Shown piece by piece: positions 101 to 60,007 of a DNA stretch of 64,000 bases. Positions within the stretch are counted from its first letter, which is position 1, and each line of letters starts with the position of its first letter. The notes under the pieces are model-generated. The model was not told where the DNA came from and made no database searches. It saw only the letters and a program-made list of their open reading frames with translations. Position numbers and translations under genes: made by a program. This DNA comes from Haloflavibacter putidus (GTDB lineage Bacteria; Bacteroidota; Bacteroidia; Flavobacteriales; Flavobacteriaceae), in NCBI RefSeq assembly GCF_006546625.1, contig NZ_VIAR01000010.1, forward strand, positions 1 through 64,000, read 5' to 3'.

Positions 101-566
101 AAATGTTGAAAATTTTAACTAAAAAGCTTTTTTTAACCATAGAATACGGGAGAACCAATCCCAAACTCAAGCTGGGGACTAGGCTTAACCGATTTTTGCG
201 AAAAACTTCCCTCGTTACGGCGCAAACTAAAGGTATTTGTAGGTTTTTATAAATTTATAAAGCTCATAATTTTGCTTGTGCCTATTCAATTTTAGCGACT
301 GGCGCTAGTTTGCTTAACCCTCCACTCACATCATTTTTTGTGCATTACTCTCGTTATTCTTCCTCGTTGTATGCAAGAACTTCGCTTAGGCCATAAAAAA
401 ATAAAAAACCTTAAAGAAAGGTATCATACTATAAATCTCTCAAACCCTTGGCTATTTATTGGCGTGTCATTCGTTTTGATTATTTTAATCGGACACTAGT
501 AACTTAAATACAAAAATTAACTATTTAATTCTTTAAATAGTTGCTCTCCTTTACGGAAAGAAAAGC
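101..566. other. Non-coding, repeat-rich stretch downstream of the transposase
   Basis: No convincing gene is seen. The stretch holds an imperfect hairpin at about 155-178 whose sequence (gaaccaatcccaaactc then gctggggac) resembles the perfect hairpin at 33141-33158. It has an inverted pair gcaaacta (about 223-230) / tagtttgc (about 306-313), an ataaatttataaa segment near 248 that recurs near 26945, and one copy of the decamer CTTTACGGAA at 549-558. It looks like a graveyard of small mobile repeats and may include the insertion-sequence end, but no clean element boundary is visible. Confidence 0.4.
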
Positions 567-1340
567 TTACTTTTTAAACTGAAAAGAATGTTTTAAACCT
601 CTAAATGCATCTAGGTCTGCTTCTAACGACCCTACTGCTAAATCTGCTCTTATTTTTAAAGGAATTTTATTAGCATCATCGCTAACCCAAAAAGTCAAAC
701 TTTCTTCTTCTTCAAAAATACGACCTGCTTGCACATAAGGTCTGAATTTTAAAGCTTTTATTTTCCCAAATTTGGTTTTAATGGTTTCCCTACCCAAGAA
801 TACCGTTTTAAATTTATAGTTTTCATCATCAAAAAACATATCTACCACCACGGCATCGTTTTTCTCAATTGTTTTTTCATCTATTTCATTCCGTAAAAAG
901 TAAAAAACAGAAATCATGTCTTGCACCTTAGGTTTGGTATCAAATCTATTACGGGTATTGCGTTTTTTATCGTGTACCAACGCCCTGTTGTTAACTTGAT
1001 CAAAATTAATTATACGGTCTTTGGTATGGCCGCCTTCGTTAATATCGCGTATAAAACGCAGAGGCAATTGGTTATCTTGGCGCACATAACTCTCGTACCT
1101 ATCGTCTACTTTAAAAAACAAATCTAATAAACCGGTAGATTTACCCCTGCCTTTAATATGATACACCGGCATATCAAACAAGGTTTCTTCATGCACTGCT
1201 AAAGTTGCATAACTGGCATTAAACCAGCCGTAATGTATTCTAAATTTAAACCACTCTCCAGGTTGGTAAGCAGAACTTTGTGCAGAAATAGACCCAACGG
1301 AAAATAAAACGCTAAAAAACGCAAACAACAACTTCTTCAT
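567..1340 (-). CDS. Secreted/periplasmic DUF3108-family protein
   Basis: 257 residues beginning with a clear Sec signal peptide (MKKLLFAFFSVLFSVGSISA, cleavage before QSS). The mature part is beta-rich (YQPGEWFKFRIHYGWFNASY, then FGKIKALKFRPYVQ and ESLTFWVSDDANKIPLKI), the pattern of DUF3108 proteins, which are predicted to sit in the periplasm or be attached to the envelope. The biochemical role is unknown. The gene stands alone between non-coding DNA and a terminator-ended leader or small RNA at 1407-1519. Reading through that terminator would transcribe it, so the upstream RNA could be its leader. The fold call is fairly secure; a function is not offered. Confidence 0.8.
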   Translation of the reverse strand: MKKLLFAFFSVLFSVGSISAQSSAYQPGEWFKFRIHYGWFNASYATLAVHEETLFDMPVYHIKGRGKSTGLLDLFFKVDDRYESYVRQDNQLPLRFIRDINEGGHTKDRIINFDQVNNRALVHDKKRNTRNRFDTKPKVQDMISVFYFLRNEIDEKTIEKNDAVVVDMFFDDENYKFKTVFLGRETIKTKFGKIKALKFRPYVQAGRIFEEEESLTFWVSDDANKIPLKIRADLAVGSLEADLDAFRGLKHSFQFKK

Positions 1341-1406
1341 GAATATGTATTTAAGTTTAGAATTTGAAATTTACAATATTTATTCCAAAATTGGTTTAAA
1401 ACACAT

Positions 1407-1436
1407 AAAACCCTATCAAATACATGATAGGGTTTT
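1407..1436 (-). terminator. Rho-independent terminator of the 1407-1519 RNA
   Basis: A perfect 12-bp stem, aaaaccctatca (1407-1418) paired with tgatagggtttt (1425-1436), encloses a 6-base loop. On the minus strand the stem ends in a T-rich run. It lies 66 bases before the DUF3108 start codon, so it either ends a small RNA or attenuates that gene. The A/T-flanked stem could also stop plus-strand transcription. Confidence 0.7.
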
Positions 1437-1519
1437 ACGCTTATTAACCAACTAAAACTTAAATTTATGAAAAAAATTACTTTTTCAAATGCACTCAAGG
1501 AAACCACCCCCTGAATGCG
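1407..1519 (-). ncRNA. Candidate small RNA or attenuating leader upstream of the DUF3108 gene
   Basis: A good Bacteroidota promoter on the minus strand (TATTTTTG at 1524-1531) is followed about 110 bases later by a strong terminator. Near its predicted 5' end the transcript can form a hairpin in which GCATTCA (1512-1518) pairs with TGAGTGC seven for seven, with one G-U pair, extended inward by GG/CC. Between the two hairpins it is A/T-rich and lacks a gene-like reading frame. It could be a free-standing sRNA of about 113 nt or a 5' leader of the gene that starts at 1340. I do not recognise an Rfam family. Confidence 0.4.
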
Positions 1520-1523
1520 GATG

Positions 1524-1554
1524 CAAAAATACGTCAGCTTTGAAATATCTGCAA
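1524..1554 (-). promoter_or_regulatory. Promoter for the candidate RNA (TTG-N20-TATTTTTG)
   Basis: On the minus strand the -33 TTG (complement of 1552-1554) is 20 bases from an exact TAnnTTTG -7 box (TATTTTTG, complement of 1524-1531). This matches the primary sigma factor consensus of Bacteroidota. The predicted start of transcription is about base 1518. Confidence 0.55.
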
Positions 1555-1639
1555 TGAAAAAGTAATATTTAACCTTTTTATTAACATATTTTCATTAAAT
1601 TTAAGATTATCTGTTTATTTGTTAATTTATTCGTAATAC

Positions 1640-2800: not shown

Positions 2801-2881
2801 TCTGTTATAATTTAAGTTTTAATTTATTCTTTTTTCTTTACGGAAGTTAAACAACCGTTTCTGCTACATTGAAATTGTCTT

Positions 2882-4042
2882 TTATTCTTCTAACCAGGAT
2901 TTGTAATAGCTGTCATCTGCTATTTTCATTCCATCTTCGGTAACCTGCAAGGGTTTAAACGTATCTACCATTACTGCCAACTCTTCTGTTTTGGTTTGAC
3001 CAATACTTCTTTCTACAGCGCCCGGATGCGGCCCGTGCGGAATACCTGCCGGATGTAACGAAATATGGCCAGCTTCAATATCGTTCCTGCTCATAAAATC
3101 GCCATCTACATAATATAAAACCTCATCGCTATCTATATTGCTGTGGTTGTAGGGCGCCGGAATACTCTCTGGATGATAATCGTATAAACGCGGACAAAAA
3201 CTACATACCACAAAAGCATCTGTTTCAAAAGTTTGATGCACTGGCGGCGGTTGATGAATTCTGCCGGTTATGGGTTCAAAATCATGAATGGAAAACGCAT
3301 ACGGATAGTTATACCCGTCGTAACCCACAACATCAAAAGGATGCGTGGCGTAAACCATATCAAAAATTTTGTTTTGTTTTTTTACTTTCATCAAAAACTC
3401 GCCTTTTTCGTCGTTGCTTTCCAACTCGTGCGGCTGGCGCAAATCTCTTTCGCAAAATGGCGAATGTTCTAACAATTGCCCAAAATGATTTCGGTAGCGT
3501 TTTGGGGTGTAAATTGGTCGGGTAGACTCTACAATAAAAAGCCGGTTGTCTTCGTCGTCAAAATCTAATTTATAGATTACCCCTCGTGGAATAAGCAGAT
3601 AATCGCCGTATTTAAAATCTATATTACCCAAATGGGTCCGTAGTTTTCCGCTGCCTTTATGTACAAAAATCAGCTCGTCTTCGTCTGAATTTTTGTAGAA
3701 ATAATCGTTGGTAGATTGTTGCGGCGCGGCCAAAATAATACTTACATCTGCGTTGGTAAGCACGGTTTTACGGCTCTCTAAATAATCTGGCGCCGGCACT
3801 ACTTGAAAGCCTTTTAGGCGGTAAGAATGCAGGTTATTTTCTACAGCTATTTTTGGACTTACATCATAGCTGCCTTTTATTTCTTTTACTTGGGTTGGCC
3901 GGTGAATGTGGTACAGGTTAGATGACATACCGTCAAAACCAATGGTACCAAATAATTGTTCGTGATACAGACCGCCATCTGGTTTTTTAAAAACCGTATG
4001 GCGCTTATGCGGGATTTTTCCTAATTTATGGTAAAAGGGCAT
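2882..4042 (-). CDS. hmgA: Homogentisate 1,2-dioxygenase
   Basis: 386 residues. It opens the ring of homogentisate to maleylacetoacetate (EC 1.13.11.5), the step after HppD. It has the bicupin layout of the family, with the metal region PYNHSNIDSDEVLYYVDGDF (His300, Glu307) and IPHGPHPG (His336), plus the conserved early segment HIHRPTQ. No maleylacetoacetate isomerase or fumarylacetoacetase gene is next to it, so the rest of the pathway must be encoded elsewhere. The start is the only ATG that keeps the conserved N-terminal PFYHKLGKIPHKRHTVF. It is the promoter-proximal gene of the hmgA-hppD pair. Confidence 0.95.
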   Translation of the reverse strand: MPFYHKLGKIPHKRHTVFKKPDGGLYHEQLFGTIGFDGMSSNLYHIHRPTQVKEIKGSYDVSPKIAVENNLHSYRLKGFQVVPAPDYLESRKTVLTNADVSIILAAPQQSTNDYFYKNSDEDELIFVHKGSGKLRTHLGNIDFKYGDYLLIPRGVIYKLDFDDEDNRLFIVESTRPIYTPKRYRNHFGQLLEHSPFCERDLRQPHELESNDEKGEFLMKVKKQNKIFDMVYATHPFDVVGYDGYNYPYAFSIHDFEPITGRIHQPPPVHQTFETDAFVVCSFCPRLYDYHPESIPAPYNHSNIDSDEVLYYVDGDFMSRNDIEAGHISLHPAGIPHGPHPGAVERSIGQTKTEELAVMVDTFKPLQVTEDGMKIADDSYYKSWLEE

Positions 4043-4187
4043 TTTTTAACGTGTTTTAAAATTTCGCCAAAAAATAAGCATTATTAAGGGTAATTAAAAA
4101 CAAAATCTCAAAATTCATACGATTAATACATTTTGTGTTTTTTCCGTAAAGGAAATAAAAAAGAGAATTATAAGTAGTTTTTATATT

Positions 4188-6423: not shown

Positions 6424-8214
6424 TTATTGATGGTAATGATTATAGACCAAGGTTGCCTTGGCATTTCCTACTACTTCAGAAAGTTCTTTTTTGGTAGCTT
6501 TACGGATACGTTTGACCGAGCGGAAATTCTTTAATAATTCTAAAGCGGTTTTTTGTCCAATGCCAGAAATATTTTCCAACTCTGTATCTATTGCGCTTTT
6601 ACTTCTTTTGTTGCGATGAAAGGTAATACCAAAACGGTGCGCTTCGTTCCGCAATTGCTGTATTATTCTAAGCGTTTCAGATTTTTTATCTAAATATAAA
6701 GGTATAGAATCGCCAGGATAAAACAATTCTTCCAGTCTTTTAGCAATACCAATTATGGCAATTTTACCGCGAAGGTCTAGTTGTTCTAAAGCACTAACGG
6801 CCGAAGAAAGTTGCCCTTTCCCGCCATCTATAATTATGAGTTGTGGCAAGGGCTCGTTTTCGTTTAACAAACGCCTGTAGCGCCTAAAAACAACTTCCTC
6901 CATAGAAGCATAATCATCCGGGCCTTCTACGGTTTTTATATTAAATTTTCGGTAATCTTTTTTGCTGGGTTTCCCGTCTTTAAAAACTACACAAGCCGCC
7001 ACCGGATTGCTACCTTGAATGTTAGAATTATCAAAGCACTCTATATGTCTGGGTTCTTCACGTAGGCGTAAATCTTCTTTCATTTGCGCCATTATTCTAT
7101 TGGCGTGGCGGTTAGGGTCTACAATTTTCATTTGTTTAAACCGCTCTTGTCTAAAATACTTCGCATTCCGTAAAGATAAATCTACAATAGCTTTTTTATC
7201 GCCCAGTTTTGGAACGGTAACTTTTACCGTTTCGCCGACATCTACTTTAAAGGGCACATAAATCTCTGTAGAATTAGATTGAAAACGCTGCCGAATCTCG
7301 GTAATGCCAAGTTCTAATAATTCCCTGTCAGATTCGTCCAACTTTTTTTTCATCTCGATAGTATGCGAACGAATTATCGCCCCGTGCGAAAGTTGTAAAA
7401 AGTTAACATAGCCATAGCCTTCGTCACTAAAAATAGAAAATACATCTACGTTATTTATCTTAGGGTTTACAACGGTAGATTTGGCTTGGTATTTTTCTAG
7501 AGTTTCTATTTTATCTTTTATACGCTGCGCATCTTCAAACTCCATCTTCTCGGCATGCCCTTGCATTTGCTGTCTAAAACGGTCTAAAGAATCTTTAAAA
7601 TTACCTTTTACAATTTGACGTATTTGCTCTATGTTGTTATGGTAATCTTGTTCTTCTTGATGGCCTTCGCACGGGCCTTTGCAATTGCCAAGATGATATT
7701 CTAAACAAACCTTGTATTTGCCACTTCTAATTTTTTCTTCCGATAAATCGTAATTACACGTACGCAATTTATACAAATCCCTAATAAGCTCTAACAGCGC
7801 ATTTACGGTTTTTCCGCTGGTAAAGGGCCCAAAATATTCGCTACCGTCTTTTATTAATCTTCGGGTAGAGAAAACCCGGGGAAAGCGTTCGTTTTTAATG
7901 CAAATCCACGGATAGGTTTTATCGTCTTTTAGCATTACGTTAAACCGTGGCTGGTATTTTTTTATCAGATTGTTTTCCAGCAAAAGCGCATCGGTTTCAG
8001 AGTTGACAACGATATGCTTTATCTCTACAATCTTTTTTACCATTACCGCAATACGGTGACTGTCGTGCTTTTTATTGAAATAAGAACTAACTCTTTTTTT
8101 AAGGTTTTTGGCTTTTCCTACGTAAAGTATTTTTCCGTTTTTATCAAAATATTGGTACACTCCAGGGCTAGAGGGCAGGGTTTTTATCTGTATTTCTAAA
8201 GGCGGTTTTTTCAT
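6424..8214 (-). CDS. uvrC: UvrABC excinuclease subunit C
   Basis: About 596 residues from ATG 8214; an upstream ATG at 8244 would add ten unconserved residues. UvrC makes both incisions during nucleotide excision repair. The N-terminal GIY-YIG nuclease is present (GVYQYFDKNGKILYVGKAKN), followed by the UVR motif (MEFEDAQRIKDKIETLEKY), the RNase-H-like C-terminal nuclease (HIECFDNSNIQGSNPVAACV) and a terminal helix-hairpin-helix (ISGIGQKTALELLKNF). The -7 box TATCTTTG ends only five bases before this ATG, which favours this start and suggests a leaderless message. A CTTTACGGAA decamer lies inside the gene (sense strand, encoding part of SLRN). Confidence 0.96.
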   Translation of the reverse strand: MKKPPLEIQIKTLPSSPGVYQYFDKNGKILYVGKAKNLKKRVSSYFNKKHDSHRIAVMVKKIVEIKHIVVNSETDALLLENNLIKKYQPRFNVMLKDDKTYPWICIKNERFPRVFSTRRLIKDGSEYFGPFTSGKTVNALLELIRDLYKLRTCNYDLSEEKIRSGKYKVCLEYHLGNCKGPCEGHQEEQDYHNNIEQIRQIVKGNFKDSLDRFRQQMQGHAEKMEFEDAQRIKDKIETLEKYQAKSTVVNPKINNVDVFSIFSDEGYGYVNFLQLSHGAIIRSHTIEMKKKLDESDRELLELGITEIRQRFQSNSTEIYVPFKVDVGETVKVTVPKLGDKKAIVDLSLRNAKYFRQERFKQMKIVDPNRHANRIMAQMKEDLRLREEPRHIECFDNSNIQGSNPVAACVVFKDGKPSKKDYRKFNIKTVEGPDDYASMEEVVFRRYRRLLNENEPLPQLIIIDGGKGQLSSAVSALEQLDLRGKIAIIGIAKRLEELFYPGDSIPLYLDKKSETLRIIQQLRNEAHRFGITFHRNKRSKSAIDTELENISGIGQKTALELLKNFRSVKRIRKATKKELSEVVGNAKATLVYNHYHQ

Positions 8215-8219
8215 TGCTT

Positions 8220-8227
8220 CAAAGATA
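8220..8227 (-). promoter_or_regulatory. -7 box of uvrC (TATCTTTG), leaderless arrangement
   Basis: An exact TAnnTTTG on the minus strand ends five bases before the uvrC ATG at 8214. The predicted transcript would start at or next to the start codon. A TTTG further upstream is only about 14 bases away, short for a -33 element. Confidence 0.5.
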
Positions 8228-8307
8228 AAGCTATTTAAAAGCAAAAAAAATGCTTTTAATTAATTAGGCTTTTTGTCTATATTTTTTACGAATTAGTATA
8301 TTGCACT

Positions 8308-11812: not shown

Positions 11813-12439
11813 TTATTCAATTTTTTTCACAACTATATCGCCAGAGATAGATTTTACTTTAATTAGGTTACCAAAACCTACACGCGGGTCTATTTTTACT
11901 GCTCCTAAATTAGATTTTGCTTCTACTTCTGCTTGTTTTGTTTTTACAAATACATCGCCGGTATAGGTTACAACAAATGCTTTTCCGGTAAAGTTAGATA
12001 AGCTGCATTGCCCTGCTTTAAGTTCGGTTTCCAGGTATTTAAAAGCGCCATTTGCATAAACAGATGCCAAGTTAGAAAGTACAACTACCTTAAAGTTTTG
12101 TGGCACATCTATTTCTAGATTTAGGGCAAATACTTTGTGGGCTGCCAATTTATCTTGCCCGCCAAGCAATAGTTTGTTGTAATGCGATTCTAGTTTTAGT
12201 TCTTTGCCTTCTATACTGTTTTTTATATAAATATCCTGCAAGTATTCTCCCTCTGCCGTTACGCTGTAGCGGATAGTTTTTCGCTTGGAAGCATTTATGG
12301 TAATTTTAAAAACCTCATCGGCTTGTACAAAAACGCTGCTAATATCTTTAGCCGAAATAATGGTTGTTTTGGTGCGTTGCGCGAAGCAATTATTTCCGTA
12401 AAGGAAAAAAACCAATAAGACAACCGTTAAATTTTTCAT
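11813..12439 (-). CDS. Secreted beta-helix-like protein (DUF2807/DUF4097-type)
   Basis: 208 residues. Signal peptide MKNLTVVLLVFFLYGNNCFA, with cleavage before QRT. The rest is a run of short beta strands with repeated patterns such as SVYANGAFKYLETELKAGQC and GDVFVKTKQAEVEAKSNLG, the layout of the putative auto-transporter adhesin (head GIN, DUF2807) and DUF4097 folds. No enzyme motif is seen; a structural or surface role is likely but not proven. It sits between lspA and a strong terminator that follows the TraR-like gene, so it needs its own promoter. A TTCCGTAAAG copy falls inside the signal-peptide codons. Confidence 0.6.
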   Translation of the reverse strand: MKNLTVVLLVFFLYGNNCFAQRTKTTIISAKDISSVFVQADEVFKITINASKRKTIRYSVTAEGEYLQDIYIKNSIEGKELKLESHYNKLLLGGQDKLAAHKVFALNLEIDVPQNFKVVVLSNLASVYANGAFKYLETELKAGQCSLSNFTGKAFVVTYTGDVFVKTKQAEVEAKSNLGAVKIDPRVGFGNLIKVKSISGDIVVKKIE

Positions 12440-16973: not shown

Positions 16974-17095
16974 TTTTTTTGGCTGTAGCCGAATAATTTT
17001 GTGCTTGGCGCGATAAATTCCGTAAAGGGAGAAGTTTAACTAATAGCGATTAATAGTTAGTCTACCTTTTTAATACAAAAACACATCTATCTATG

Positions 17096-23842: not shown

Positions 23843-24940
23843 ATGCGTCTTATTCTTTCTATACTTTTGGTTGCTTTTTGCTGCACACCAAGCTGGGCGC
23901 AAGATGCAATTAGAGGTTTTGTAGTAGACTCTGCCACCAATAAACCTATAGAAGGTGCTGCGGTTTTTTATGAAAACACAATGCGTGGCACCAGTACTAA
24001 CCAACACGGTTTTTTTGTGCTTCGCGCGGAAACGAAAATCAAATCTCTCCTAAACATTAGAGCTTTGGGTTATAAGCAAGTTCGTTTAGAGAAACCCAAA
24101 TTAAACCAAAATCAGCGCTTTTTGTTGGTAGAAAAAGACACCCAATTAGAAACCGTATATCTAAATACAGCAAGTAAACCTACTACAAAAAGCCATAGCC
24201 GCGAAAGCGAACCGCATTTTCGGGAATATTTTCTATCTTATTTTAAGTATTACTTTTTAGGAGGCGGGCATCGTAGAGGTACCCGCATTAAAAATTTAGA
24301 TAAAATAAACATAAGCCATTCGCCAGATAAAAAGAATATTAAATTCTCCAGTAAACGTCCTTTAGAGATAGAAAATGAATATTTAGGCTATACGATTACT
24401 TACTATTTAGACAATTTTGTTATAAACCGTAAAGAAAGTGAGCTGGCATCCAATCTGGCAAATGATTCTTACCAACACTTAGGAAACGGTTTTTTTAAAG
24501 AATTAAATCCGGATAGGGTAAAAAACAAGTATAAAAAAAGACGTAACGAGGTTTACCAACATTCTATTCTGCGATTAATGCGTGCTCTGGCAGATAGCAG
24601 TCTGGCCAAAAACGGATTTAAATTGGTAAACGAAAAAGGAGAAGATATTGCCTTGCAAAGAACCAAACACAAGAGCTTTACGGAAATTAAACCTCCGTCT
24701 GTCTTTTATGTTTACCGGGCGGGAGATATCAAGAACCATGATAAAAAAACATGGGAACAAATTCAGTTTATTTTAGAAAAAATAAAGCCTACCCCTCTTA
24801 CCAAAGTAATTGCTAAACAAAATTTTGGCATAGATAAGTGGGGCAATTTCTTTCCGCACGACGCGCTTCGGTTTGAAGGTTATTTGGGCAAAAAAGGATA
24901 TAGCGATGCTTTACCCTTAGATTTTCAGCCGTATGAATAA
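23843..24940 (+). CDS. Secreted protein with CarboxypepD_reg-like domain, second paralogue
   Basis: 365 residues. Signal peptide MRLILSILLVAFCCTPSWA. The N-terminal CarboxypepD_reg-like domain (IRGFVVDSATNKPIEGAAVF ... GTSTNQHGFFVLRA) is laid out like its upstream neighbour. The C-terminal region again contains FFKELNPDRVKNKYKKRRNE then YxxSxLRLMRAL, so the two genes come from a tandem duplication that has since diverged strongly. It lies 14 bases behind the first copy. A CTTTACGGAA decamer lies inside. Last gene of the OlsF-like operon. Function not known. Confidence 0.8.
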   Translation: MRLILSILLVAFCCTPSWAQDAIRGFVVDSATNKPIEGAAVFYENTMRGTSTNQHGFFVLRAETKIKSLLNIRALGYKQVRLEKPKLNQNQRFLLVEKDTQLETVYLNTASKPTTKSHSRESEPHFREYFLSYFKYYFLGGGHRRGTRIKNLDKINISHSPDKKNIKFSSKRPLEIENEYLGYTITYYLDNFVINRKESELASNLANDSYQHLGNGFFKELNPDRVKNKYKKRRNEVYQHSILRLMRALADSSLAKNGFKLVNEKGEDIALQRTKHKSFTEIKPPSVFYVYRAGDIKNHDKKTWEQIQFILEKIKPTPLTKVIAKQNFGIDKWGNFFPHDALRFEGYLGKKGYSDALPLDFQPYE

Positions 24941-33107: not shown

Positions 33108-33177
33108 TTTTCTTTGCTCGTCCAAAGAAAACGAACCAATCCCCAACTCTAGTTGGGGACAAAAATTCTTTACGGAA
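33108..33177. repeat. Compact intergenic repeat: two hairpins plus the decamer
   Basis: TTTTCTTTG (33108-33116) pairs with CAAAGAAAA (33123-33131) across ctcgtc. CCCCAACT (33141-33148) pairs with AGTTGGGG (33151-33158) across ct. CTTTACGGAA follows at 33168-33177. A looser version of the second hairpin is at about 150-180. The rest of the 32994-33258 gap shows no gene. Confidence 0.6.
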
Positions 33178-34611: not shown

Positions 34612-35934
34612 TTAAGATTTATCTAAGTTAGAAGGTAAAATCCACGGGTTGTGCCAGAAATAGTTCCATTCGGCTGCAGCCATATCTACCTCATTATCTA
34701 TAAAGCGTTCGTAAGGTCTTTGGTTTACGCTTACGCGGGAATCTACATATATTGCAATATTCTTACCTTTTTGAGCATATTCTTTTTTAAGCCGTTGCGA
34801 AAATTGCCAAATCATATCTGGCTTGGTCGCCAAAGCCCGGCGCTGTTTTTTGCTTAGGTAATCTTTTAAATTTACAAAATGTTCGTCGCCGGTCTTTTTA
34901 TTGACAATCTTAAAATTAATAATGCCAGATTTGGTGCGCAACATCATTCGCCAGCTTAAACGGTGGCCTTCTTCTGTCCATAAAACATTTTCTTTTATAA
35001 GCCAATGTCTTAGCGGCAAACCTATTTGTACAATAAACCAAATACCAAAAAAAGTAACTAGCAAAGGTTTATAATTTGGCACAATTACTTCGGCTTTGTT
35101 GTAAAAAAGCTTTCGTTTTAAAAAGCGTTTATGAATGCTTTCTTCCGAAAAGAAAAACAAGCAAAATGCCAAAGATAAATAAGGAAAAATACCAATATGA
35201 AAAACTGCACTATTAAAAAGGTGAAAGAAAACCGCTAAAATAAAAACCGGCAACCTGGTTTTGCGCCACAACAATAAAGGAACAATTAACAAATCGAAAA
35301 ATATACCAAAATAAGCTACCACCACCGGTACCCAATCCGGTTTAAGTAAAAACCCGATGTAGGGCAAACGTGAGCGGGCATCCATAAGTATTGTTGGCAT
35401 GGTTAAATCTAACCAATCTGGATACAATTTTGCTACGGCGGCATAGGTATAAACAACTCCCAATTGTAAAATGATAAAGATTTTTACCCAGCGTGGCATG
35501 CTTATTTTCCGTAAAGCCGGATTTTGACGCGCATCTAAAGAAAGATACCGATTTGCCGGCACGATAAGCATAAAAATGCAAATTAACAGCAGCAAATAAT
35601 AATGGTTGTTGTAACTGGATTTTTGTAGAAAATAAACACCGGCCCACATAAGGGTAAAGCCAAACATACTAAAACGGTATTTATAACCTAGAGCTACAAA
35701 AACGCCAAAAACGCCCATAATAAAAAAGTAAAGGTACATTTTTGGTCCTAGTAGTGCTTGCAAAAAATCGAGGCCTATAAAGTTAAAAGTTTGCGAAGGC
35801 TCTACCATAACCCGTTTTACCCAGCCGGTAGCAATTGCGCCCCAAGCTTCTAAGGTAATTAGAACACCAAAAAACACCCGAAAAAGCACTAACGAGCTAT
35901 TGTCTATATGCGTAAAGAGCCAACGATTGAGCAT
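34612..35934 (-). CDS. HTTM-domain membrane protein (vitamin-K gamma-carboxylase-like)
   Basis: 440 residues, with about eight to ten membrane helices in the first 310 residues (for example SLVLFRVFFGVLITLEAW, IFIILQLGVVYTYAAVAKLY) and a soluble C-terminal part. The HTTM domain is shared with vitamin-K-dependent gamma-glutamyl carboxylase, and the family call rests on the helix pattern and the AKLYPDWLD segment. Bacterial members mostly have no proven substrate. Its ATG overlaps the ribF stop by one base, so it is translated from the ribF message. Confidence 0.82.
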   Translation of the reverse strand: MLNRWLFTHIDNSSLVLFRVFFGVLITLEAWGAIATGWVKRVMVEPSQTFNFIGLDFLQALLGPKMYLYFFIMGVFGVFVALGYKYRFSMFGFTLMWAGVYFLQKSSYNNHYYLLLLICIFMLIVPANRYLSLDARQNPALRKISMPRWVKIFIILQLGVVYTYAAVAKLYPDWLDLTMPTILMDARSRLPYIGFLLKPDWVPVVVAYFGIFFDLLIVPLLLWRKTRLPVFILAVFFHLFNSAVFHIGIFPYLSLAFCLFFFSEESIHKRFLKRKLFYNKAEVIVPNYKPLLVTFFGIWFIVQIGLPLRHWLIKENVLWTEEGHRLSWRMMLRTKSGIINFKIVNKKTGDEHFVNLKDYLSKKQRRALATKPDMIWQFSQRLKKEYAQKGKNIAIYVDSRVSVNQRPYERFIDNEVDMAAAEWNYFWHNPWILPSNLDKS

Positions 35935-36916: not shown

Positions 36917-36946
36917 AGAAAATACCTTAACCCTAAAAATTATTCT

Positions 36947-39900
36947 ATGAAAACAAATTTACGCCAAGTTTTTTCTTTGCTAATGTTTTTTGCTGTTTTT
37001 TCTATGGCAGCTCAAAATAATTACTGGGAGAAAACATCGGTTTCTACCCTAAAAAATGAAAAGACTATTGAAAGGGCAGTTACCCCAACCAAATTTGAAG
37101 TATTTAAATTAAACTTAAATGCTTTTAAAAACGCTTTAATTGGTGCGCCCTTACGGGGTAGCATTTCCGGAAAATCTACAAAAATTGTAGAATTCCCCAC
37201 TCCGGAGGGAAAACTAGAGAAATTTCGAGTGGCAGAATCTCCAATAATGGAGCCTGGTTTAGCAGTAAAATTTCCGGGTATCAAAACCTATAAAGCTACC
37301 GGAATTGACGATCCTACCGCTACTATGCGTTTTAGTGTTACGCAGTTTGGTGTACACGCTATGAGTCTTTCCGGCCAACGTTCTACCACTTATATAGATC
37401 CTTATACAGAAGACAGAACTTCGTATATGATCTTTAGTAGAAAAGATATTGGTGCAAACCCGCAAGACTTTGAATGTCTTACCGAACAAGGTATAGATCT
37501 TAATTCTATTGAAGAAGAAGTAAGCACCAATAGAAACGATACAGACGATAGTGTTTTACGAACCTACAGATTAGCACAATCTAATAATGCTCCTTATGGT
37601 AACATTTTTGCCAATCCGGGAACAGAAGTAGAAGATATTCAAGCGCAAATGGCTATCACTATAAATCGCGTAAACGAAATTTATGAACGTGATTTGGCAA
37701 TTACTTTAGTATTTGTAGCCAATAACGACCAATTAATTTATTGGGGAGATAGCGCAGACGATCCTTGGGACGGCGAATATAACAACACCACACAACAAGT
37801 TATTGATAGCACGATTGGAAGTGCCAATTATGACATTGGCCATAATTTTAACACCACCGGTGGCGGGAACGCAGGCTGTATTGCATGTGTATGTATAGAT
37901 GGTAGTAAAGGAAGTGCATATACTGGAAGCGACAATCCTGTTGGCGATCCTTTTTATATAGATTATGTGGCACACGAAATGGGACACCAATTTGGTGGTT
38001 ATCATACCATGAACACCTGTAGTAGAAGTGGTGATGGCACTACAGAAGTAGAGCCCGCTAGTGGTAGCTCTATAATGGGCTACGCGGGTATTTGTAGTAC
38101 TAACGTACAATCTAACTCAGATGCGCATTTTAATTATGTAAACGTTCGTGATATTTCAGAAAACATTCAACCCGGAGGTAATAGTACTTGTGGGGCGCAA
38201 ACGCCTTTAAACAATCAGCCTCCGGTTGCAGATGCTGGGACAGATTATACCATTCCTATTTCTACTGCCTATGTATTGCGTGGCAGTGCCACTGATCCTG
38301 ATGGGACTGCGACTTTAACCTATAACTGGGCACAAAACGATCCAGAAGAAGCTCCGGGAACAGGAAGTCCACAACCTACTTGGACAGCAGGACCACTATA
38401 TCGTTCTATTATGCCAGCACAAACCCCAGATCGCTATATGCCAAAATTATCTGATGTAGTTGCCGGTAATTTGACCCCTACCTGGGAGGTAACCCCTTCT
38501 GTATCTAGAATTATGAATTTCTCATTTATAGTTCGCGATAACGGTAGCGGTTTTGCAGCAGGAATAGGACAGACAGATGCAGATCTTATGCAAGTAACTG
38601 TAGACGATAGCGCAGGACCATTTGTGGTTACTTCGCAAAATACCGGAACAACTTGGACGGCTGGAGAAACCCAAACCGTAACTTGGGACGTAGCTAATAC
38701 GGATGTAGCACCAATAAATGCTGCTAATGTAAATATCTTATTATCTAATAATGGTGGTTTGAGTTTTGATACCGTTTTAGCATCTAATGTTCCTAACAAC
38801 GGCTCTTACGATATAACCGTTCCTGCAGTACAATCTACTCAAGAAGCTAGAGTTATGGTAGAAGCAGCAGATAACATTTTCTACGCCGTAAATACAGAAG
38901 CATTTACTATAGAAACAGCAGAATTTGAGATAAACTTTACGGAAGATGAAGTGGCAACCTGTCAACCAAATAATGCAGAATACAACTTTACGTACAACAC
39001 ATTAAATGGTTTTAACGAAGAAACAACTTTCTCTGTTTCGGGATTGCCAGCAGGAACCACGGCAAGTTTTAGCCCCGCAACTGCAACAAATGATGCTACC
39101 GCTGTAGACTTAACTATTACAGATATAGCCAATGCAGCTGTTGGAGAATATGTACTTACCGTTACCGGTACTTCAACTTCTATAACCAGAACAGAAGATA
39201 TTGTATTAAATATTTATAGCGACAATATAGATCCTGTAGTACTTTCTACTCCAAATGACGGAGAGTTAGATTTAGATTTGGTACCTTTATTTGCTTGGGA
39301 AGAAGATGAAAATGCAGAAAACTATCAAATACAAGTTGCAGAAGATGCAGACTTTAACAGTATAGTTTTAGAGGAAATAACAGATAGTAACTCGTATACT
39401 TCCTCTGTTACTTTTGAGGAGGAAACTACTTATTACTGGCGTGTTAGAGCAATTAACTCTTGTGGAAACGGTTCTTATTCTTCTGTAAGAAGTTTTACGA
39501 TAGGAGAATGTAGCCTATGTAACTCTGTTGCCAATACAAGCTTTGAAACTAGTGTAACAAAAGTTATATTGAATACCATTGATAATTCTAGCGGAAAACC
39601 GTCTGGTTATAGTGATTATACAGATATCTCAACCACCTTGGTACAAGAAGAAAGCTACGACCTTACAGTAAATGTGAACACAGATGGTGATTATCTAGCA
39701 GCCGCCAAAGTATGGATAGATTGGAACCAAGATTGTAATTTTGACGGTCCGAATGAAGAGTACGATTTAGGTTCTGCTACCAACACAGCAGATGGTCCTA
39801 CCGCAGCTTCGCCACTTAACATTACCGTTCCGGCAAATGCTGTTTTAGGCAATACCACTATGCGTGTGTCTGTTCAATACAATTCAGCCACAACAGCTTG

Positions 39901-40277: not shown

Positions 40278-40389
40278 TTATTCTATTTATTGGTTGCGAA
40301 CAGTATTTTATTTTTCAGTAAAGATTATTCTAATTGGTTTACGGAACTTTTTCTTCCGTAAAGGAAAAATCAAAGAATTTCTTAAGCCT

Positions 40390-44898: not shown

Positions 44899-45954
44899 CT
44901 ACTCCAAAACTTGTTCATAATTGGTGTTGAACAATTCTCGTATCAAATCTGAGTTATGTTGATTTATTAAAATAACCATACCCCAATCTTCTTTTTTATT
45001 ATACGCCATTATAGAAGAACACGCAAATGTGTCGCCTGTTTTGTAAAAAAACTTATCTTCTTTACTTCTGGCAATTTCCTGTCCCAATCCCACTTCTCTC
45101 TTAGTGTTTTGGTAATAAGTAGCTTCTGTAATTTTGGTTGCATTTGCAATTTTGCCGTTATTAGATAAAAGTATATCCAACAACTTAACCATATCTGCAG
45201 TATTAGATTTTAATAAACCTGCCGGACCCGTCCAGGAATTCCATTTAAAATATTCTTGTTCTACTCCATTAATATCGTAACCACAAACCTTATTTTGCCC
45301 TTCAACATTGGAAGTAAAAGTATTTTTCATTTGAGCCGGATCGAGTATTTTTTCTTTTACCAATTCCGTAAAGTTCTTCGCATAGACTTCTTCCAAAATT
45401 ATTCCCATTAAGGTGTAACTTATATTAGAATAGCGGTAATTGCCGTAATCTAGCAATTTTGTACTATTGTTTAAGATAGCGTGCAAAGTTTTTTTAGTAA
45501 CATCTAAGGGTTGTTGCGGTTTGGTCTGCATTAACTTTTTAAAATCAAAGTCTGGTAAGCCGGATTGGTGCGAGGCTAAGTCTGAAATTTTTATTTTATT
45601 TCTTATCTCTTTAGGTAAATTATATTCGGTAGGCAAATACTTTCCTATCAAGTCGTTTACATTTAATTTCCCTTCTTGTTGTGCTTGCGCGATTAGATTG
45701 GCAGTTAATAACTTGGTAATAGAGCCAATTTCGTAAATAGTATTTTTATTAACCTCTAGATTGCTTTGGCGATTAATTTTTCCGTAATTGAAAAAATATT
45801 CTTTTCCCTTATCAATAAAACCAATACTAATTGCAACTTGTGGGTTTTTAGTGAAAATTTCTTTACTAATAGCGTCTATTTGTGCTGCCCGTGATTGTGC
45901 GAAAGTAAACTGACTTAAAAGAAGTAGGCATAACAGATTGCAAATAATTTTCAT
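44899..45954 (-). CDS. Secreted serine hydrolase, class C beta-lactamase / esterase fold
   Basis: About 351 residues from ATG 45954, with signal peptide MKIICNLLCLLLLSQFTFA; an ATG at 45975 would add seven residues. Penicillin-binding-protein-like fold (PF00144): Ser78-x-x-Lys in SITKLL, Tyr-Ser-Asn in YRYSNISYTLMG and the KTG triad in FFYKTGDTFAC are all present, so it should be active. The family includes beta-lactamases, D-aminopeptidases and esterases; resistance should not be assumed. A decamer copy lies inside the gene, which converges with the broken glutamate-synthase-like gene. Confidence 0.88.
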   Translation of the reverse strand: MKIICNLLCLLLLSQFTFAQSRAAQIDAISKEIFTKNPQVAISIGFIDKGKEYFFNYGKINRQSNLEVNKNTIYEIGSITKLLTANLIAQAQQEGKLNVNDLIGKYLPTEYNLPKEIRNKIKISDLASHQSGLPDFDFKKLMQTKPQQPLDVTKKTLHAILNNSTKLLDYGNYRYSNISYTLMGIILEEVYAKNFTELVKEKILDPAQMKNTFTSNVEGQNKVCGYDINGVEQEYFKWNSWTGPAGLLKSNTADMVKLLDILLSNNGKIANATKITEATYYQNTKREVGLGQEIARSKEDKFFYKTGDTFACSSIMAYNKKEDWGMVILINQHNSDLIRELFNTNYEQVLE

Positions 45955-46121
45955 AAGCTTTGGTTTTCTATACAACGCTTTAAAAATGCTTTTGCTACCA
46001 GAATTTAGGTTTATTTGTTTTTCACTTTCGTGGAAACGAAAAAGCGCGTATTAATAGAAGTTAAACTTAAGCTGCTTTGGTAATAAATATTGTAGATTAG
46101 AAGTTTTGTTTATTTTCTCTT

Positions 46122-46874
46122 CTAAGCTTTTAACCATTTAATAGCTTCTTTTTCTTCTTCGAGAGAAAAATATTTTAAAGTAACAGATTGAAAGATTTTA
46201 TCTTCTAAGGTCAAAATTTTCTCTATCCATTTTTTATTGCTAACAACGGCATATTTATTTACTTGAGAGATGCTTTCAAAATCTACTTTTATGCTTTTAA
46301 GAAAAGTTTTAAAACTATCAAAGCCATCAAAATTTTTAAAAACCGCCAATAAGTTTACCTTTTCTTCTTTGTTTTTTATAATTCCGTAAAGCGCTTCTAT
46401 TGCTCCTTGATCTATTTTACCATCTATAGTAAATTTATAAATATTAGAATTATCTAACTTTTCGAAATCTAATTGGGTTAAATATTCTTCTTCCGTAAAG
46501 GTTTTATGATACGATTTGTTAAGCCAGGTAATTGCCTGGTCTTTTTCTTTTGCAGCAAAATGCTTGATGGGTATTCTTGGCGTTAGTAAATTGCCCAAAG
46601 GCGTAAAAGCTTTTATCCAACCGGCATCAGATACCACCGCGTATTTCTCTATATTGGTTAGGGCTTTAAATTTTAGTTTAAAGGTCTCGCTAAAAGCTTT
46701 AAAACTTTCAAAACCCGGAAATTCTTTAAATTCTGCCAACAGTTTTATTTTCTGTTTTTCTTCTAATTTCCGGTCTAACAAATAATAAAAATCTTCTAAA
46801 TCGCGGGTGTTTAATTCTCCTTCTACCGTGAAGGCATAAATTTGGGTTCCTTCTATTTGGTGTAGGTTAAACAT
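46122..46874 (-). CDS. Duplicated SpoIIAA/STAS-like protein
   Basis: About 250 residues from ATG 46874. Two SpoIIAA-like (PF11964) halves in tandem. The first contains LLAEFKEFPGFESFKAFSET and KYAVVSDAGWIKAF; the second contains LLAVFKNFDGFDSFKTFLKS and KYAVVSNKKWIEKI. Such domains are thought to bind lipids or proteins at the membrane; none of the serine phosphorylation context of true anti-sigma antagonists is seen. Two copies of the decamer fall inside, 109 bases apart and in different frames (46382, 46491). A single gene. Confidence 0.82.
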   Translation of the reverse strand: MFNLHQIEGTQIYAFTVEGELNTRDLEDFYYLLDRKLEEKQKIKLLAEFKEFPGFESFKAFSETFKLKFKALTNIEKYAVVSDAGWIKAFTPLGNLLTPRIPIKHFAAKEKDQAITWLNKSYHKTFTEEEYLTQLDFEKLDNSNIYKFTIDGKIDQGAIEALYGIIKNKEEKVNLLAVFKNFDGFDSFKTFLKSIKVDFESISQVNKYAVVSNKKWIEKILTLEDKIFQSVTLKYFSLEEEKEAIKWLKA

Positions 46875-46960
46875 AGATTTTTTCTTAAAGTTACACATTA
46901 TCTAAGCCCTAGAGGGTTAAAACTTCTGTAAAAAAAGTTTAATTATATCTTATTAACCGC

Positions 46961-48024: not shown

Positions 48025-48137
48025 TTTATTTTTTCAGCCTGACGAATTGCGGTAGACATTTTTTAAATTTAGAATGCTTTACAAGCTGTAAAATACTCCC
48101 TTTCTATTCCGTAAAGAAAAAAGGACAAAAATTTACT

Positions 48138-48145
48138 TACTTTTG
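48138..48145 (+). promoter_or_regulatory. -7 box of the MscS gene (TACTTTTG)
   Basis: Exact TAnnTTTG, 33 bases before ATG 48179. It overlaps an in-frame TTG at 48143, which therefore is not the start. A TTCCGTAAAG copy lies 21 bases upstream. Confidence 0.5.
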
Positions 48146-48178
48146 AAAAAGAACCTTGCAAGGGAAAAGCAACCGATT

Positions 48179-49315
48179 ATGAAAAAATTTTTTATCGCAC
48201 ATAAAGACGATTTATTGTTTATAGGTTTTACCCTTTTAACCGTAATTTTACTTTTATGGCTTACCCAATTTACCTATACATTTCTAAACAAAAAACTGCA
48301 AGCTAAATTTAGTCGCAAAAGCCTGAAAAGTTTATTGCGCGTAAAGCAGATTTTAAACACTTTATGGGTTATTATTGGGTTAGGAACAATGAGTTTTGTA
48401 TTCTTAAACCAAGAAACGGTTGATAAGGTAAAAGATCAATTGGAATTGATTGTTTATGTGGGCGTAATTATAATTCTTACCATATTGTTTGCGGCGGTAA
48501 TGCAATTGTTTTTTAGCAAACAAATTCAAGAGAAAATAAACGAAGGAGAAGATTCTACCAACCTGCGCTTTATACAGTATTTGGCCACTATTGCAGTTTA
48601 TTCTTTAGGTCTTTTACTAATTATTTTGGCTTTTCCTTCTTTACGAACTTTGGCCGGTACCATTTTAGGCGGTGCAGGAATCTTAGCCGTGGTAATTGGT
48701 ATAGCTTCGCAAGAAGCCTTGGCAAATTTGGTGAGCGGTATTTTTATAATCACTTTTAAACCTTTCAAAATTGGCGATATCGTTAAAATTACAGACGAGA
48801 TGATGGGAACCGTACACGATATTACTTTGCGACACACCGTAATTCGTGACTTTCAAAACAAAATGATTGTAATTCCCAACGCGATTATTAATAAAGAGCG
48901 CTTAATAAATTATGATTTAAACGATAATAAAGTACGCCAATGGGTTTTTATACGTGTTTCGTACGACAGCGATTTAGATCTGGCAAAGAAAATAATGTAC
49001 GAAGAAAGCATGAACCATCCCTTTACCATAGACAACCGCAGCCCATTAGAAAAAGCCAATAAAGAGCCGGTGGTTTTGGTAAAAGTGGTAGAACTGCAAG
49101 AATCTTGTGTAATGCTGCGGGCGTGGGTGTGGACCAATAATTATGAAAACTCATTTGATCTTAAATGCGATTTATACGAAAGCATTAAAAAACGCTTTGA
49201 CACGGAAGGAATTGTAATGCCATTCCCGCATCGTATGTTGGTTTTTAAAGATGAAAATGCCCAAGAATATTACGACACAACCAATTCTAAAGAAGATTCT
49301 AAAACCAACGAATAA
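48179..49315 (+). CDS. MscS-family mechanosensitive ion channel
   Basis: About 378 residues from ATG 48179. Membrane helices at about 8-30, 60-80, 95-115 and 140-190; the last is the pore helix, with the Gly/Ala-rich signature LGGAGILAVVIGIASQEALA, followed by the beta domain FKPFKIGDIVKI and the cytoplasmic vestibule domain with VIPNAIINKERLINYDLND. Opens under hypo-osmotic membrane tension. A single gene. Confidence 0.94.
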   Translation: MKKFFIAHKDDLLFIGFTLLTVILLLWLTQFTYTFLNKKLQAKFSRKSLKSLLRVKQILNTLWVIIGLGTMSFVFLNQETVDKVKDQLELIVYVGVIIILTILFAAVMQLFFSKQIQEKINEGEDSTNLRFIQYLATIAVYSLGLLLIILAFPSLRTLAGTILGGAGILAVVIGIASQEALANLVSGIFIITFKPFKIGDIVKITDEMMGTVHDITLRHTVIRDFQNKMIVIPNAIINKERLINYDLNDNKVRQWVFIRVSYDSDLDLAKKIMYEESMNHPFTIDNRSPLEKANKEPVVLVKVVELQESCVMLRAWVWTNNYENSFDLKCDLYESIKKRFDTEGIVMPFPHRMLVFKDENAQEYYDTTNSKEDSKTNE

Positions 49316-49475
49316 ACTTTCTTAAATTATAAAATTCTTCTCAAGTTTATTCTTAAAATAGTAACCGACAAGGCTTAGCGTTTTCTTTACGGAAAATTTT
49401 TCCTAAAGAAGTTTAAAAAAATAAAAACACCTACGGTTTTTATCTAATTATTTAGGCTTTTAATCTCGAAAAATG

Positions 49476-49510: not shown

Positions 49511-50092
49511 ATGAACGATTTTTCAATTTACTTTAATTTAGGCTTAACCCATGTTTTAGACTGGAATGCCTACGACCACGTTTTATTTTTAACCGTTTTG
49601 GTAGCTGCTTCTACTTTTAAAGATTGGAAACGCGTGGTTGGTTTGGTAACCTTATTTACCATTGGTCATACTGCCTCTTTGGTTCTTGCTGCCTACGATG
49701 TTTTGGCAGTTTCGGGTAGTTTAATAGAGTTTTTAATTCCCGTTTCTATTTTAATTACTGCTTTTTATAACTTGTTTACTGCCGGCAAAACAAAAAATGG
49801 TTCTATTTTATTGCTGTATGTGGTAACTTTATTTTTTGGCTTAATTCACGGTTTCGGATTTTCGTCTTTCTTTGTAAGTACTACCGGTAGCGGCGGAATA
49901 GAAGTTTTACGCTTACTTGCATTTGCGGTAGGTATAGAGGCCGCACAATTAATTGTAGTCTTAATCGTTTTGCTATTAGCCTTTATTTTTCAGAATATAT
50001 TTAGGTTGTCCAAACGCGATTGGGTGCTTATAATTTCGGCAATTATAATAGGGCTTACCATTCCTATGTTGCGCGAAAATTGGATATTATAA
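49511..50092 (+). CDS. HupE/UreJ-family membrane protein
   Basis: 193 residues, with about six membrane helices. HupE/UreJ-type signature histidines are visible in LGLTHVLDWNAYDHVLFL, TIGHTASL and GLIHGFGFSS, suitable for a divalent metal such as Ni or Co. Characterised relatives are metal permeases; here no hydrogenase or urease gene is near, so the substrate is open. It leads an operon with dCMP deaminase 15 bases on. Confidence 0.85.
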   Translation: MNDFSIYFNLGLTHVLDWNAYDHVLFLTVLVAASTFKDWKRVVGLVTLFTIGHTASLVLAAYDVLAVSGSLIEFLIPVSILITAFYNLFTAGKTKNGSILLLYVVTLFFGLIHGFGFSSFFVSTTGSGGIEVLRLLAFAVGIEAAQLIVVLIVLLLAFIFQNIFRLSKRDWVLIISAIIIGLTIPMLRENWIL

Positions 50093-52972: not shown

Positions 52973-53122
52973 GTGTTTTTCTGCCAAAAATTTTATTAAA
53001 ATTTAATCGATAATAAACAGTCTATTACGACTTAAAAAACACTCAAAAAAATGAGGTCTTTTTGGGCTTTACGGAAGTTATTGCGCTTTATAAACTAAAC
53101 CTTTTTTCCGTAAAGTACATCC

Positions 53123-58571: not shown

Positions 58572-58594
58572 ACAATAATTACAAAACTAAACTT

Positions 58595-58633
58595 ACCCGT
58601 GTCAACCAATAATCTTAGTGTTTTGGCACGGGT
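58595..58633 (+). terminator. Hairpin, probable terminator
   Basis: ACCCGTGTCAA (58595-58605) pairs with TTGGCACGGGT (58623-58633), one G-U pair, across a 17-base loop. The T-run after it is weak (ATTCTCT), so termination may be partial. Confidence 0.55.
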
Positions 58634-58673
58634 ATTCTCTAAACCAATTTAACAACAACAATTAATTTTAAGA

Positions 58674-59378
58674 ATGAAAAAATTAACCTTTATGAAAAGT
58701 AACATTTTTATCTTATGTATCAGTCTATTCGTTTTAACTGCCTGTAGCAGTGATGATGCTACTACTAACCCTGGACCAGACGATTTTAACCTTCTAACTC
58801 CCAACAACAGTAACAATGTAGACTTACTCCCAGAATTAACATGGGAAGCAGCAACACACCCAAATGACGATAATATTACTTACGATGTCTATTTAGGCAC
58901 TCAAAATCCGCCACAAAATATAATTGCTACTAATCATACTTTTAATTTTTTAGATCTAGAAGAAGAGCTAGAGCCAGAAACTACTTATTATTGGCAAGTT
59001 GTAGCTAAAGATAGTAATGACAATACCAGTACAAGTAACTTGGCGTCTTTTACCGTTAGAGAAAAAACTACCGAAGAATTACTAAGAGGCAAATGGTTTT
59101 ACGACAGTATAGAAGGAGAAGAACCCTTAAACACCTGTCAAAAAAATAGCTTTTTAAACTTCAAAGAAAATGGATCTTTAGAAATAAAGCGCTTTAACAT
59201 AAATAACAATCAAGAATGTGTTTTTGACACCTCCATTTTAATGTATCAAACTACAAATGAAATACAGATAGAAGTTTCAATGGGTGAAGTTTCAGAAACC
59301 TGGAACATTGTTAATCTGGATGCTGGAAATTTAAGTATTGATGCTGAAGGTATCCTTTTAAATTTAGTAAAAGAATAA
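58674..59378 (+). CDS. Lipoprotein with fibronectin-III-like and lipocalin-like parts
   Basis: 234 residues (an ATG six codons in at 58692 is also possible). Lipobox LTAC, then SSDDATT, again with acids close behind the lipid cysteine. Residues 38-128 look like a fibronectin-III / Ig-like module of the kind in surface proteins (PELTWEAATHPNDDNITYDV, TTYYWQVVAKDSNDNTSTS). Residues 135-234 begin LLRGKWFYDSIEGEEP, the opening of small lipocalin-like beta barrels. Probably surface-exposed; ligand unknown. Confidence 0.75.
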   Translation: MKKLTFMKSNIFILCISLFVLTACSSDDATTNPGPDDFNLLTPNNSNNVDLLPELTWEAATHPNDDNITYDVYLGTQNPPQNIIATNHTFNFLDLEEELEPETTYYWQVVAKDSNDNTSTSNLASFTVREKTTEELLRGKWFYDSIEGEEPLNTCQKNSFLNFKENGSLEIKRFNINNNQECVFDTSILMYQTTNEIQIEVSMGEVSETWNIVNLDAGNLSIDAEGILLNLVKE

Positions 59379-59407
59379 CTAAAAGGTCATTAAAATAAAG
59401 CTTTATA

Positions 59408-60007
59408 ATGAAATATATGCTAATGCTAAGCACTTTTTGTTTGCTATTTATCAGTCAGTTTTCATACACACAAGACTTACAAGGAAAATGGATTATGGCT
59501 AAGAAAAATAATAAGAACTCTTTTTTAAACGTGCACGTTATGCAGTTTACTAAAGACAGTCTTACGCATTATAATTTTGATCAAAAATTTTCGGCAACAC
59601 GGTATTCCGTAAAGCAAAACCGTATAGAAGTAGATACTGCTGCTATTGGAGGTTTTAGATTTTTAGATGCAGATAGGTTCCGTTTAAAGCCGGAGAGAAT
59701 AAGTGATTCTATAGATTTTGTGAGAATAAAACCTACAGAAACCAATTTGTCTTTCGAACAAATTAAAAAAAAGCACTATGCTATAAATTATAGAGGAAGA
59801 ACGCTTATCACAGATTTTAATGATACTCTAGAAAATAACGGACCAAGCACTCGCTTAGAAAAAATAAGTGACACTTATTTTCTTTCAATTTACAGAAACG
59901 CAAGAAGATTAGGCGCAATACCTATAAAGAAAGCTACTAAACAAGAAATAGTAGTTTACGGTTTCCCCGAAATACCGTATCAAATTTTGGGAGAAGAGAA
60001 ACCATAA
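59408..60007 (+). CDS. Exported protein, lipocalin-like start, function unknown
   Basis: 199 residues. Signal peptide MKYMLMLSTFCLLFISQFSY, cleavage near TQD. The mature protein opens with DLQGKWIMAKKNNKNSFLNV, similar in layout to the second half of the preceding lipoprotein, and stays beta-rich. No catalytic motif. It lies 29 bases after that gene. It holds the only in-gene decamer that reads TTCCGTAAAG in the sense direction (59605). Confidence 0.65.
   Translation: MKYMLMLSTFCLLFISQFSYTQDLQGKWIMAKKNNKNSFLNVHVMQFTKDSLTHYNFDQKFSATRYSVKQNRIEVDTAAIGGFRFLDADRFRLKPERISDSIDFVRIKPTETNLSFEQIKKKHYAINYRGRTLITDFNDTLENNGPSTRLEKISDTYFLSIYRNARRLGAIPIKKATKQEIVVYGFPEIPYQILGEEKP

Follow-up and report, generated by a model that had tools for sequence, protein, structure and literature searches.

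An over-represented ten-base word in Mesonia genomes, probably a DNA uptake sequence

Why does one ten-base word recur twenty times in 64 kb of flavobacterial DNA? The stretch in question, called the window in the following, comprises positions 1 to 64,000 of contig NZ_VIAR01000010.1 from Haloflavibacter putidus and represents the start of a 119-kb contig in a genome of 2,923,547 bases on 53 contigs. The window is assigned to a Mesonia species: among 80 loci kept, the nearest relatives of its gene taken as ileS are those of Mesonia aquimarina, at 81%, and of M. oceanica, at 80%. The genome, here G000, was compared as one genus set with 15 other genomes of Mesonia, a genus of the Flavobacteriaceae in the phylum Bacteroidota. 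The word, TTCCGTAAAG, probably serves as a DNA uptake sequence (DUS), i.e. as a self-recognition tag of naturally transformable Mesonia.

Abundance and conservation of the word

The window carries 20 exact copies of TTCCGTAAAG, 13 on the plus and seven on the minus strand, and every coordinate given in the initial annotation was exact when the window was searched again. When trained on the window itself, Markov models predict 0.24-0.37 copies at orders 1 to 3 and 0.76 at order 4, hence the 0.1-0.3 copies first estimated from base composition were about right. Using the order-3 model, TTCCGTAAAG is the top-scoring over-represented 10-mer of the window; it is ten bases long and non-palindromic, i.e. 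it differs from its own reverse complement. The count over the whole genome, which had been suggested as a check, is likewise far above expectation, because 370 forward and 376 reverse copies (746 in total) are found versus 4 + 4 = 8 for the reversed word. When imperfect sites are included (own genome and the sister species G005), the ratio of observed to expected sites falls from 23.3 for the exact word to 1.87 and 0.91 with one and two mismatches, respectively.

The position and conservation of the copies were analyzed in a sample of 580,192 bases of the own genome, which includes the window and contains 127 copies. The sister species G005 shares about 89% DNA identity, and at 52 of the 127 copies the fetched G005 sequence aligns with full flanks after alignments under 300 bases were dropped. 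The proposed comparison of orthologous sites gave a clear answer: 49 of these 52 copies are exactly kept in G005, versus 1312 of 3492 (38%) words of the same composition (p 8e-18), and 50 of 60 are exactly kept in the opposite direction.

The comparison with G005 by codon position covered 38 genic and 16 intergenic copies. At third codon positions only one of 141 bases inside the word has changed, versus 361 of 1440 (25%) within 60 bases around it (p 8e-16), while first and second positions inside the word changed in 4 of 121 and 0 of 118 cases versus 10% and 6% outside. Between genes, where the alignment itself can favour matching words (an effect of little weight for the genic result), identical bases make up 159 of 160 within the word versus 433 of 591 in the flanks. 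The near absence of changes at third codon positions inside the word shows that the constraint acts on the DNA, even where the protein code permits change.

In the 580-kb sample, with genes called by a simple script in place of a standard gene finder, 37 of the 127 copies lie outside or partly outside genes versus 12.3% non-coding DNA, corresponding to an enrichment of about 2.4-fold (p 3e-7). The remaining 90 copies are genic, whereas a codon model expects about 1.1. They occupy all five stop-free settings, CTTTACGGAA being the sense word in 34, 13 and 12 cases and TTCCGTAAAG in 26 and 5; the sixth setting, in which the word would introduce a stop codon, is empty. Neither codon use, which the initial annotation had already dismissed, nor a frequent peptide can thus be the source of the word.

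The copies in the window are as follows.

549..558, minus strand: intergenic, adjoining the DUF3108 gene 567-1340
2836..2845, minus strand: intergenic, with 1640-2800 on one side and 2882-4042 on the other
4142..4151, plus strand: intergenic, carrying the extension TTTCC-GTAAA-GGAAA
7166..7175, plus strand: within the uvrC-like gene 6424-8244
12394..12403, plus strand: near the 5' end, open reading frame (ORF) 11813-12439 (Pfam: no family found), with the extension TTTCC-GTAAA-GGAAA
13621..13630, plus strand: within the class I tRNA synthetase gene 12939-16370, taken as ileS
17018..17027, plus strand: intergenic, 3' of the TerB-like gene 16545-16973
24676..24685, minus strand: within the CarbopepD_reg gene 23843-24940
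33168..33177, minus strand: intergenic, between the TPR gene 31179-32966 and ORF 33259-34530
35507..35516, plus strand: within the HTTM / gamma-carboxylase-like gene 34612-35934
38935..38944, minus strand: within the reprolysin-like protease gene 36914-40225
40354..40363, plus strand: intergenic, between converging genes, with a partial inverted second copy directly upstream
45364..45373, plus strand: within the PF00144 (beta-lactamase-fold) gene 44899-45975
46382..46391, plus strand: within the SpoIIAA-like gene 46122-46898
46491..46500, plus strand: second copy in the SpoIIAA-like gene 46122-46898, 109 bases further
48107..48116, plus strand: intergenic, upstream of the MscS-like gene 48143-49315
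49385..49394, minus strand: intergenic, upstream of the HupE/UreJ-like gene 49511-50092
53067..53076, minus strand: forms an inverted pair with the next copy, upstream of where the DUF3109 gene likely starts
53106..53115, plus strand: other member of the inverted pair, upstream of the likely DUF3109 start
59605..59614, plus strand: within ORF 59408-60007 (Pfam: no family found)

The initial annotation placed half of these copies between genes. Mechanical gene calls give only 8 of 20, but the number rises to 10 of 20 if the DUF3109 gene, called from 53062, begins at the ATG at 53158, which is probably its start judging from the reading frame and a Pfam match that begins at residue 33. The claim that genic copies almost always read CTTTACGGAA in the sense strand holds for the window (9 of 10, with the DUF3109 pair left out) and fails in the 580-kb sample (59 of 90). 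The extension to TTTCC-GTAAA-GGAAA, described for intergenic copies, occurs at 4142 and 12394; the latter copy is within a called gene, and the extension is not general. The window gene 34612-35934 encodes a vitamin K-dependent gamma-carboxylase-like protein with HTTM and lumenal domains, here in a bacterium.

Dialects in the genus Mesonia

The word is unevenly distributed in the genus. Next to the 746 copies in G000, there are 804 in G005, 255 in G003 and 263 in G015, then 69-70 each in G001, G006 and G012, and at most 27 in the other nine of the 16 Mesonia genomes. Outside the genus, the maximum is 59 copies per genome among 299 genomes drawn evenly in a search of the family. The word TTCCGNNAAG is found 1176, 1261, 914 and 794 times in G000, G005, G003 and G015, respectively, versus 74-117 for the reversed control, and 319 times in G007 (control 92), whereas ATCCGTAAAG reaches 154-169 copies in G001, G006 and G012 versus 9-12 for its control. 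In sampled DNA, G000 and G005 mostly hold a central TA (203 of 312 TTCCGnnAAG sites), the central dinucleotide varies in G003 and G015 (TA 38, TT 23, TC 15, AT 14 and CT 10 of 118), and G001, G006 and G012 favour A as the first base. The dialects are hence shared by lineage, namely by G000/G005, by G003/G015 and by G001/G006/G012, and have the core TCCG..AAG in common. Conservation is also seen in a second lineage: between G003 and G015 (80% identity), 19 of 31 and 19 of 22 TTCCGnnAAG sites are exactly kept, versus 11% of controls.

In seven species the word is not in excess, with two copies seen versus 4.5 expected in their pooled samples. Samples of 20-120 kb from these species revealed no other dialect comparable to those above; the best weak words include GAAGGATTAA in G004, with 9 copies seen versus 0.6 expected.

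Alternative roles for the word

The initial annotation had listed a Chi-like or uptake-signal word, an iterated oligomer resembling HIP1, a nucleoid-protein site and a methylation target as possible roles. The uptake signal is favoured by our data; Chi lost ground by the missing overall polarity and HIP1 by the non-palindromic sequence, as set out below.

It is unlikely that the word acts as a Chi-like hotspot of recombination, recognised by an AddAB-type nuclease-helicase when double-strand breaks are repaired. The strong conservation at the DNA level would be expected for Chi too, and all five genomes tested encode an AddB-sized PF12705 protein (about 900-940 aa), with an AddA-sized PF12705 neighbour (1059-1062 aa) about 5 kb away in G000, G004 and G005; the names AddA and AddB are based on protein size and position. 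Chi sites resemble the Mesonia word in being short and frequent genome-wide, but the latter is used in both orientations and shows no replication polarity overall: in the 580-kb sample, the strand that is locally richer in G carries 56 copies and its complement 71, when GC skew of the sampled contigs is taken as leading-strand proxy. The contig C7 of G005 has a split of 21 to 33 in 160 kb, and the copies of G003 also use both strands (5/5 in the first 20 kb). The Chi function is further weakened by G004, which has the same AddB- and AddA-sized genes but just five copies of the word. Moreover, the word, with its ten bases and a central dinucleotide that is free in one lineage, is longer than typical Chi words.

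It also appears improbable that the word is bound by a chromosome-organising or global regulatory protein. Its genome-wide occurrence, its strong conservation and a spacing close to random (mean 4.6 kb, standard deviation 5.9 kb, KS p 0.29), which includes some long gaps, would fit such a site. However, the word is not a palindrome, it is found inside genes in every stop-free setting, and at most 27 copies exist in 9 of the 16 Mesonia species.

Even less can be said for an iterated oligomer like HIP1 or a methylation target that is maintained by a modification enzyme, which we regard as very unlikely. HIP1 is a palindromic octamer. The Mesonia word shares with this class the over-representation of a short word in coding and non-coding DNA, but it is not palindromic, which weakens the case for HIP1, its dialects differ inside one genus, and it is longer than usual modification targets.

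The least tenable proposal is that the word belongs to a longer repeat, an insertion sequence or a terminator hairpin. In its favour, the extension TTTCC-GTAAA-GGAAA surrounds a few copies, and there is one inverted pair less than 50 bases apart, but the flanks hold at most 0.17 bits per position (94 copies in the first 449 kb, 26% of which are followed by G), conservation ends at the word, and 90 of 127 copies are genic. TTCCGTAAAG is thus a bare 10-mer without a longer repeat around it, and the insertion or repeat element that had been named as a refuting find is absent. A terminator hairpin as general role was rejected: 11 of 121 neighbouring spacings are below 200 bases versus 5.2 expected, and only one inverted pair within 50 bases exists among the first 94 copies.

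Two other repeated elements were observed in the own genome. A second dispersed word, the palindrome CTTCCGCGGAAG, has seven sites in 580 kb, six of them within called genes, and relatives such as GCTTTCGCGGA; one related site lies in the window at 22836, and the samples drawn from G003, G005 and G015 are enriched in related words. This second word is reminiscent of HIP1-like or REP-like palindromes and has TTCCG in common with the main word. Furthermore, outside the window, C1:114834-118129 (L091) holds a CRISPR-like array of 43 repeats containing CAATCGCACCTCATTGGAATTGAAA, which are 63-68 bases apart at the ends inspected.

Uptake and its candidate receptor

If TTCCGTAAAG is a DNA uptake sequence, a surface DNA receptor preferring the word would import word-bearing and hence conspecific DNA. 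Recombination of the imported DNA would mend mutated copies and spread new ones where they do little harm, such that copies would accumulate in either orientation, in intergenic DNA as well as at tolerant codons, while newly acquired DNA would gain copies only slowly. The receptor might be a pair of a plug/beta-barrel protein and a DUF5689 lipoprotein that binds and imports DNA with a preference for the word. Competence, biased uptake and the identity of this pair as the receptor are what we infer from the genomes.

The known uptake sequences come from two proteobacterial families, both with pilus-based uptake. The Neisseriaceae receptor ComP is a pilin, i.e. a pilus subunit, unlike the dense Mesonia carriers, which lack a pilus-type ATPase over the cut-off and a secretin. 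The DUS of the Neisseriaceae (PMC3630211) is similarly an over-represented 10-mer with genic and intergenic copies, lineage dialects sharing a core, and conservation within species; however, its sequence and phylum are unrelated, and the copy density is lower in Mesonia. The uptake signal sequence (USS) of the Pasteurellaceae also shows an excess that falls with mismatch load, there over more mismatches, and a preference for non-coding and tolerant coding sites (PMC1939737), but its sequence is unrelated too and the predicted receptor is a minor pilin of type IV (PMC12616744).

Two inserts that are absent from G005 are poor in copies. A 16.9-kb insert (C52:37633-54577, L272-L273) has none and a 19.9-kb insert (C1:70771-90712) has one, giving together one copy in 36.9 kb versus about 11 expected from the density in DNA shared with G005 (54 copies in 182 kb). 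The former insert is likely a mobile defence island according to its genes, which include a phage-type integrase, an MmeI-like restriction-modification gene, a Schlafen/AlbA_2-type gene and a DEAD helicase gene.

Type IV pilus machinery is common to both known DUS/USS groups and was not detected in G000, G005, G003 and G015, since searches of these dense carriers gave no PF00437 (pilus-type ATPase) over the cut-off and no PF00263 (secretin) match. A receptor of the type IV pilus type was therefore rejected for them. The type II / type IV pilus ATPase and the secretin are over the cut-off only in G002, G012, G013 and G014, none of which is a dense carrier; the other twelve Mesonia genomes gave no secretin match and no pilus-type ATPase over the cut-off. 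The secretin lies within about 2-3 kb of the type II secretion / pilus-type ATPase in these four genomes.

Genes for ComEC and DprA were found in 16 of 16 Mesonia genomes, as was DUF5689 over the cut-off, with a second, weaker copy elsewhere in most of them. Eight genes are reported as essential for transformation in Riemerella anatipestifer, which encode ComEC, DprA, ComF, RecA, a helix-hairpin-helix protein, a DUF1343 protein, an outer-membrane protein with a CarboxypepD domain and a DUF5689-DUF5017 protein; the genes of the last two are adjacent and predicted to form one operon (PMC8459023). Riemerella belongs to the Flavobacteriaceae in the taxonomy of these papers, and Mesonia resembles it in ComEC, DprA and the architecture of the outer-membrane pair. 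In the own genome, C52:6780-9569 encodes a 929 aa protein with CarboxypepD_reg and a sub-cut-off Plug match, and the next gene, C52:9599-10945, encodes a 448 aa DUF5689 + DUF5017 protein, a pair that matches the architecture of the transformation-essential pair of R. anatipestifer. The N-terminus of the DUF5689 protein (...TSCVQDDD) presumably represents a surface lipoprotein signal. Comparison with solved structures gave no good match, the best being the C-terminal part with a DUF4955 protein (E 7e-5).

The trees of DUF5689 and its barrel partner, the latter built on roughly its 450 C-terminal residues, divide the genus into type A with seven species and type B with nine, with 100/100 support, and conflict with the ComEC tree. 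Forcing the seven type-A species into one group was rejected for ComEC (AU test p 1.4e-7), and so was keeping any one of three ComEC groups intact in the DUF5689 and barrel trees (p 1.3e-6 or less), in both cases with groups named after the trees had been seen. The ComEC group G000, G005 and G008 has a support of 82/85 in the ComEC tree. In the ileS tree it reaches 95/98, but other parts of that tree are unresolved and two of its rows are shortened. A neighbouring gene failed as tree control for the outer-membrane pair, because it was found only in G000 and G005. From these trees, it seems that Mesonia species have exchanged the two types of the candidate receptor pair.

Using rounded genome sizes for the relatives, type A corresponds to 376-396 excess copies per Mb and type B to 28 among G000, G005 and G008, while among G003, G015, G007, G001, G006 and G012 the values are 232-280 for type A and 61-100 for type B. 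The other seven species range from -13 to 12 whatever their receptor type. That receptor type tracks word density, with two contrasts in the predicted direction, is a lead and not a result. More tentatively, it is possible, though rather doubtful, that these Bacteroidota possess a pilus-independent, sequence-specific uptake in which a SusCD-like plug/beta-barrel with the DUF5689-DUF5017 lipoprotein reads TTCCGTAAAG and in which a swap of the receptor leads to decay of the word.

Several observations weigh against the word as an uptake sequence. Its exact density of 0.26/kb is far under the 2245-4549 copies per genome of the Neisseriaceae dialects (PMC3630211). The two dense lineages share few sites, only 3 of 13 being kept from G000 to G003, although this is more than the 3.7% of controls. 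Single contigs are strand-uneven (15 to 5 copies on C4 of the own genome), and the AddB-sized nuclease leaves Chi a small probability. ComEC, DprA and DUF5689 do not predict the word because they also occur in word-free Mesonia, and the type-A species G004, G002 and G009 without word excess are not explained by a simple receptor rule. Finally, absence of copies is not solely a sign of recent arrival, because a 36-kb gap at C4:39634-75320 is also empty. This gap contains an elongation-factor gene and, after it, a long series of small genes, which we take as the ribosomal-protein cluster solely because of their order and size; annotation covered ten proteins of the gap, eight of which had no PHROG match. 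If so, very conserved genes would be avoided too. In a third gap (C2:16985-52636), two proteins were annotated, one UvrA-like and one without Pfam match.

An uptake word in Bacteroidota appears to be unreported. Our literature search found no established one, though most subscription journals were outside its coverage, and a search for the exact word string gave, among the matches listed, no paper on genome-wide words as judged by title. The nearest precedent is R. columbina, which is reported to prefer its own DNA; unlike in Mesonia, no specific word is established in that source, where the commonest k-mers are A/T-rich, low-complexity strings (PMC7965970). A similar word, if it exists there, may explain this preference.

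If true, an uptake word in another phylum without a recognisable pilus would be a third origin and would indicate that self-tagging evolves repeatedly. One genus spans dense, sparse and absent states of the word and offers candidate receptor genes. Hence, the co-evolution of a receptor's sequence taste with a genome-wide word, a long-standing question, would become testable in Mesonia.

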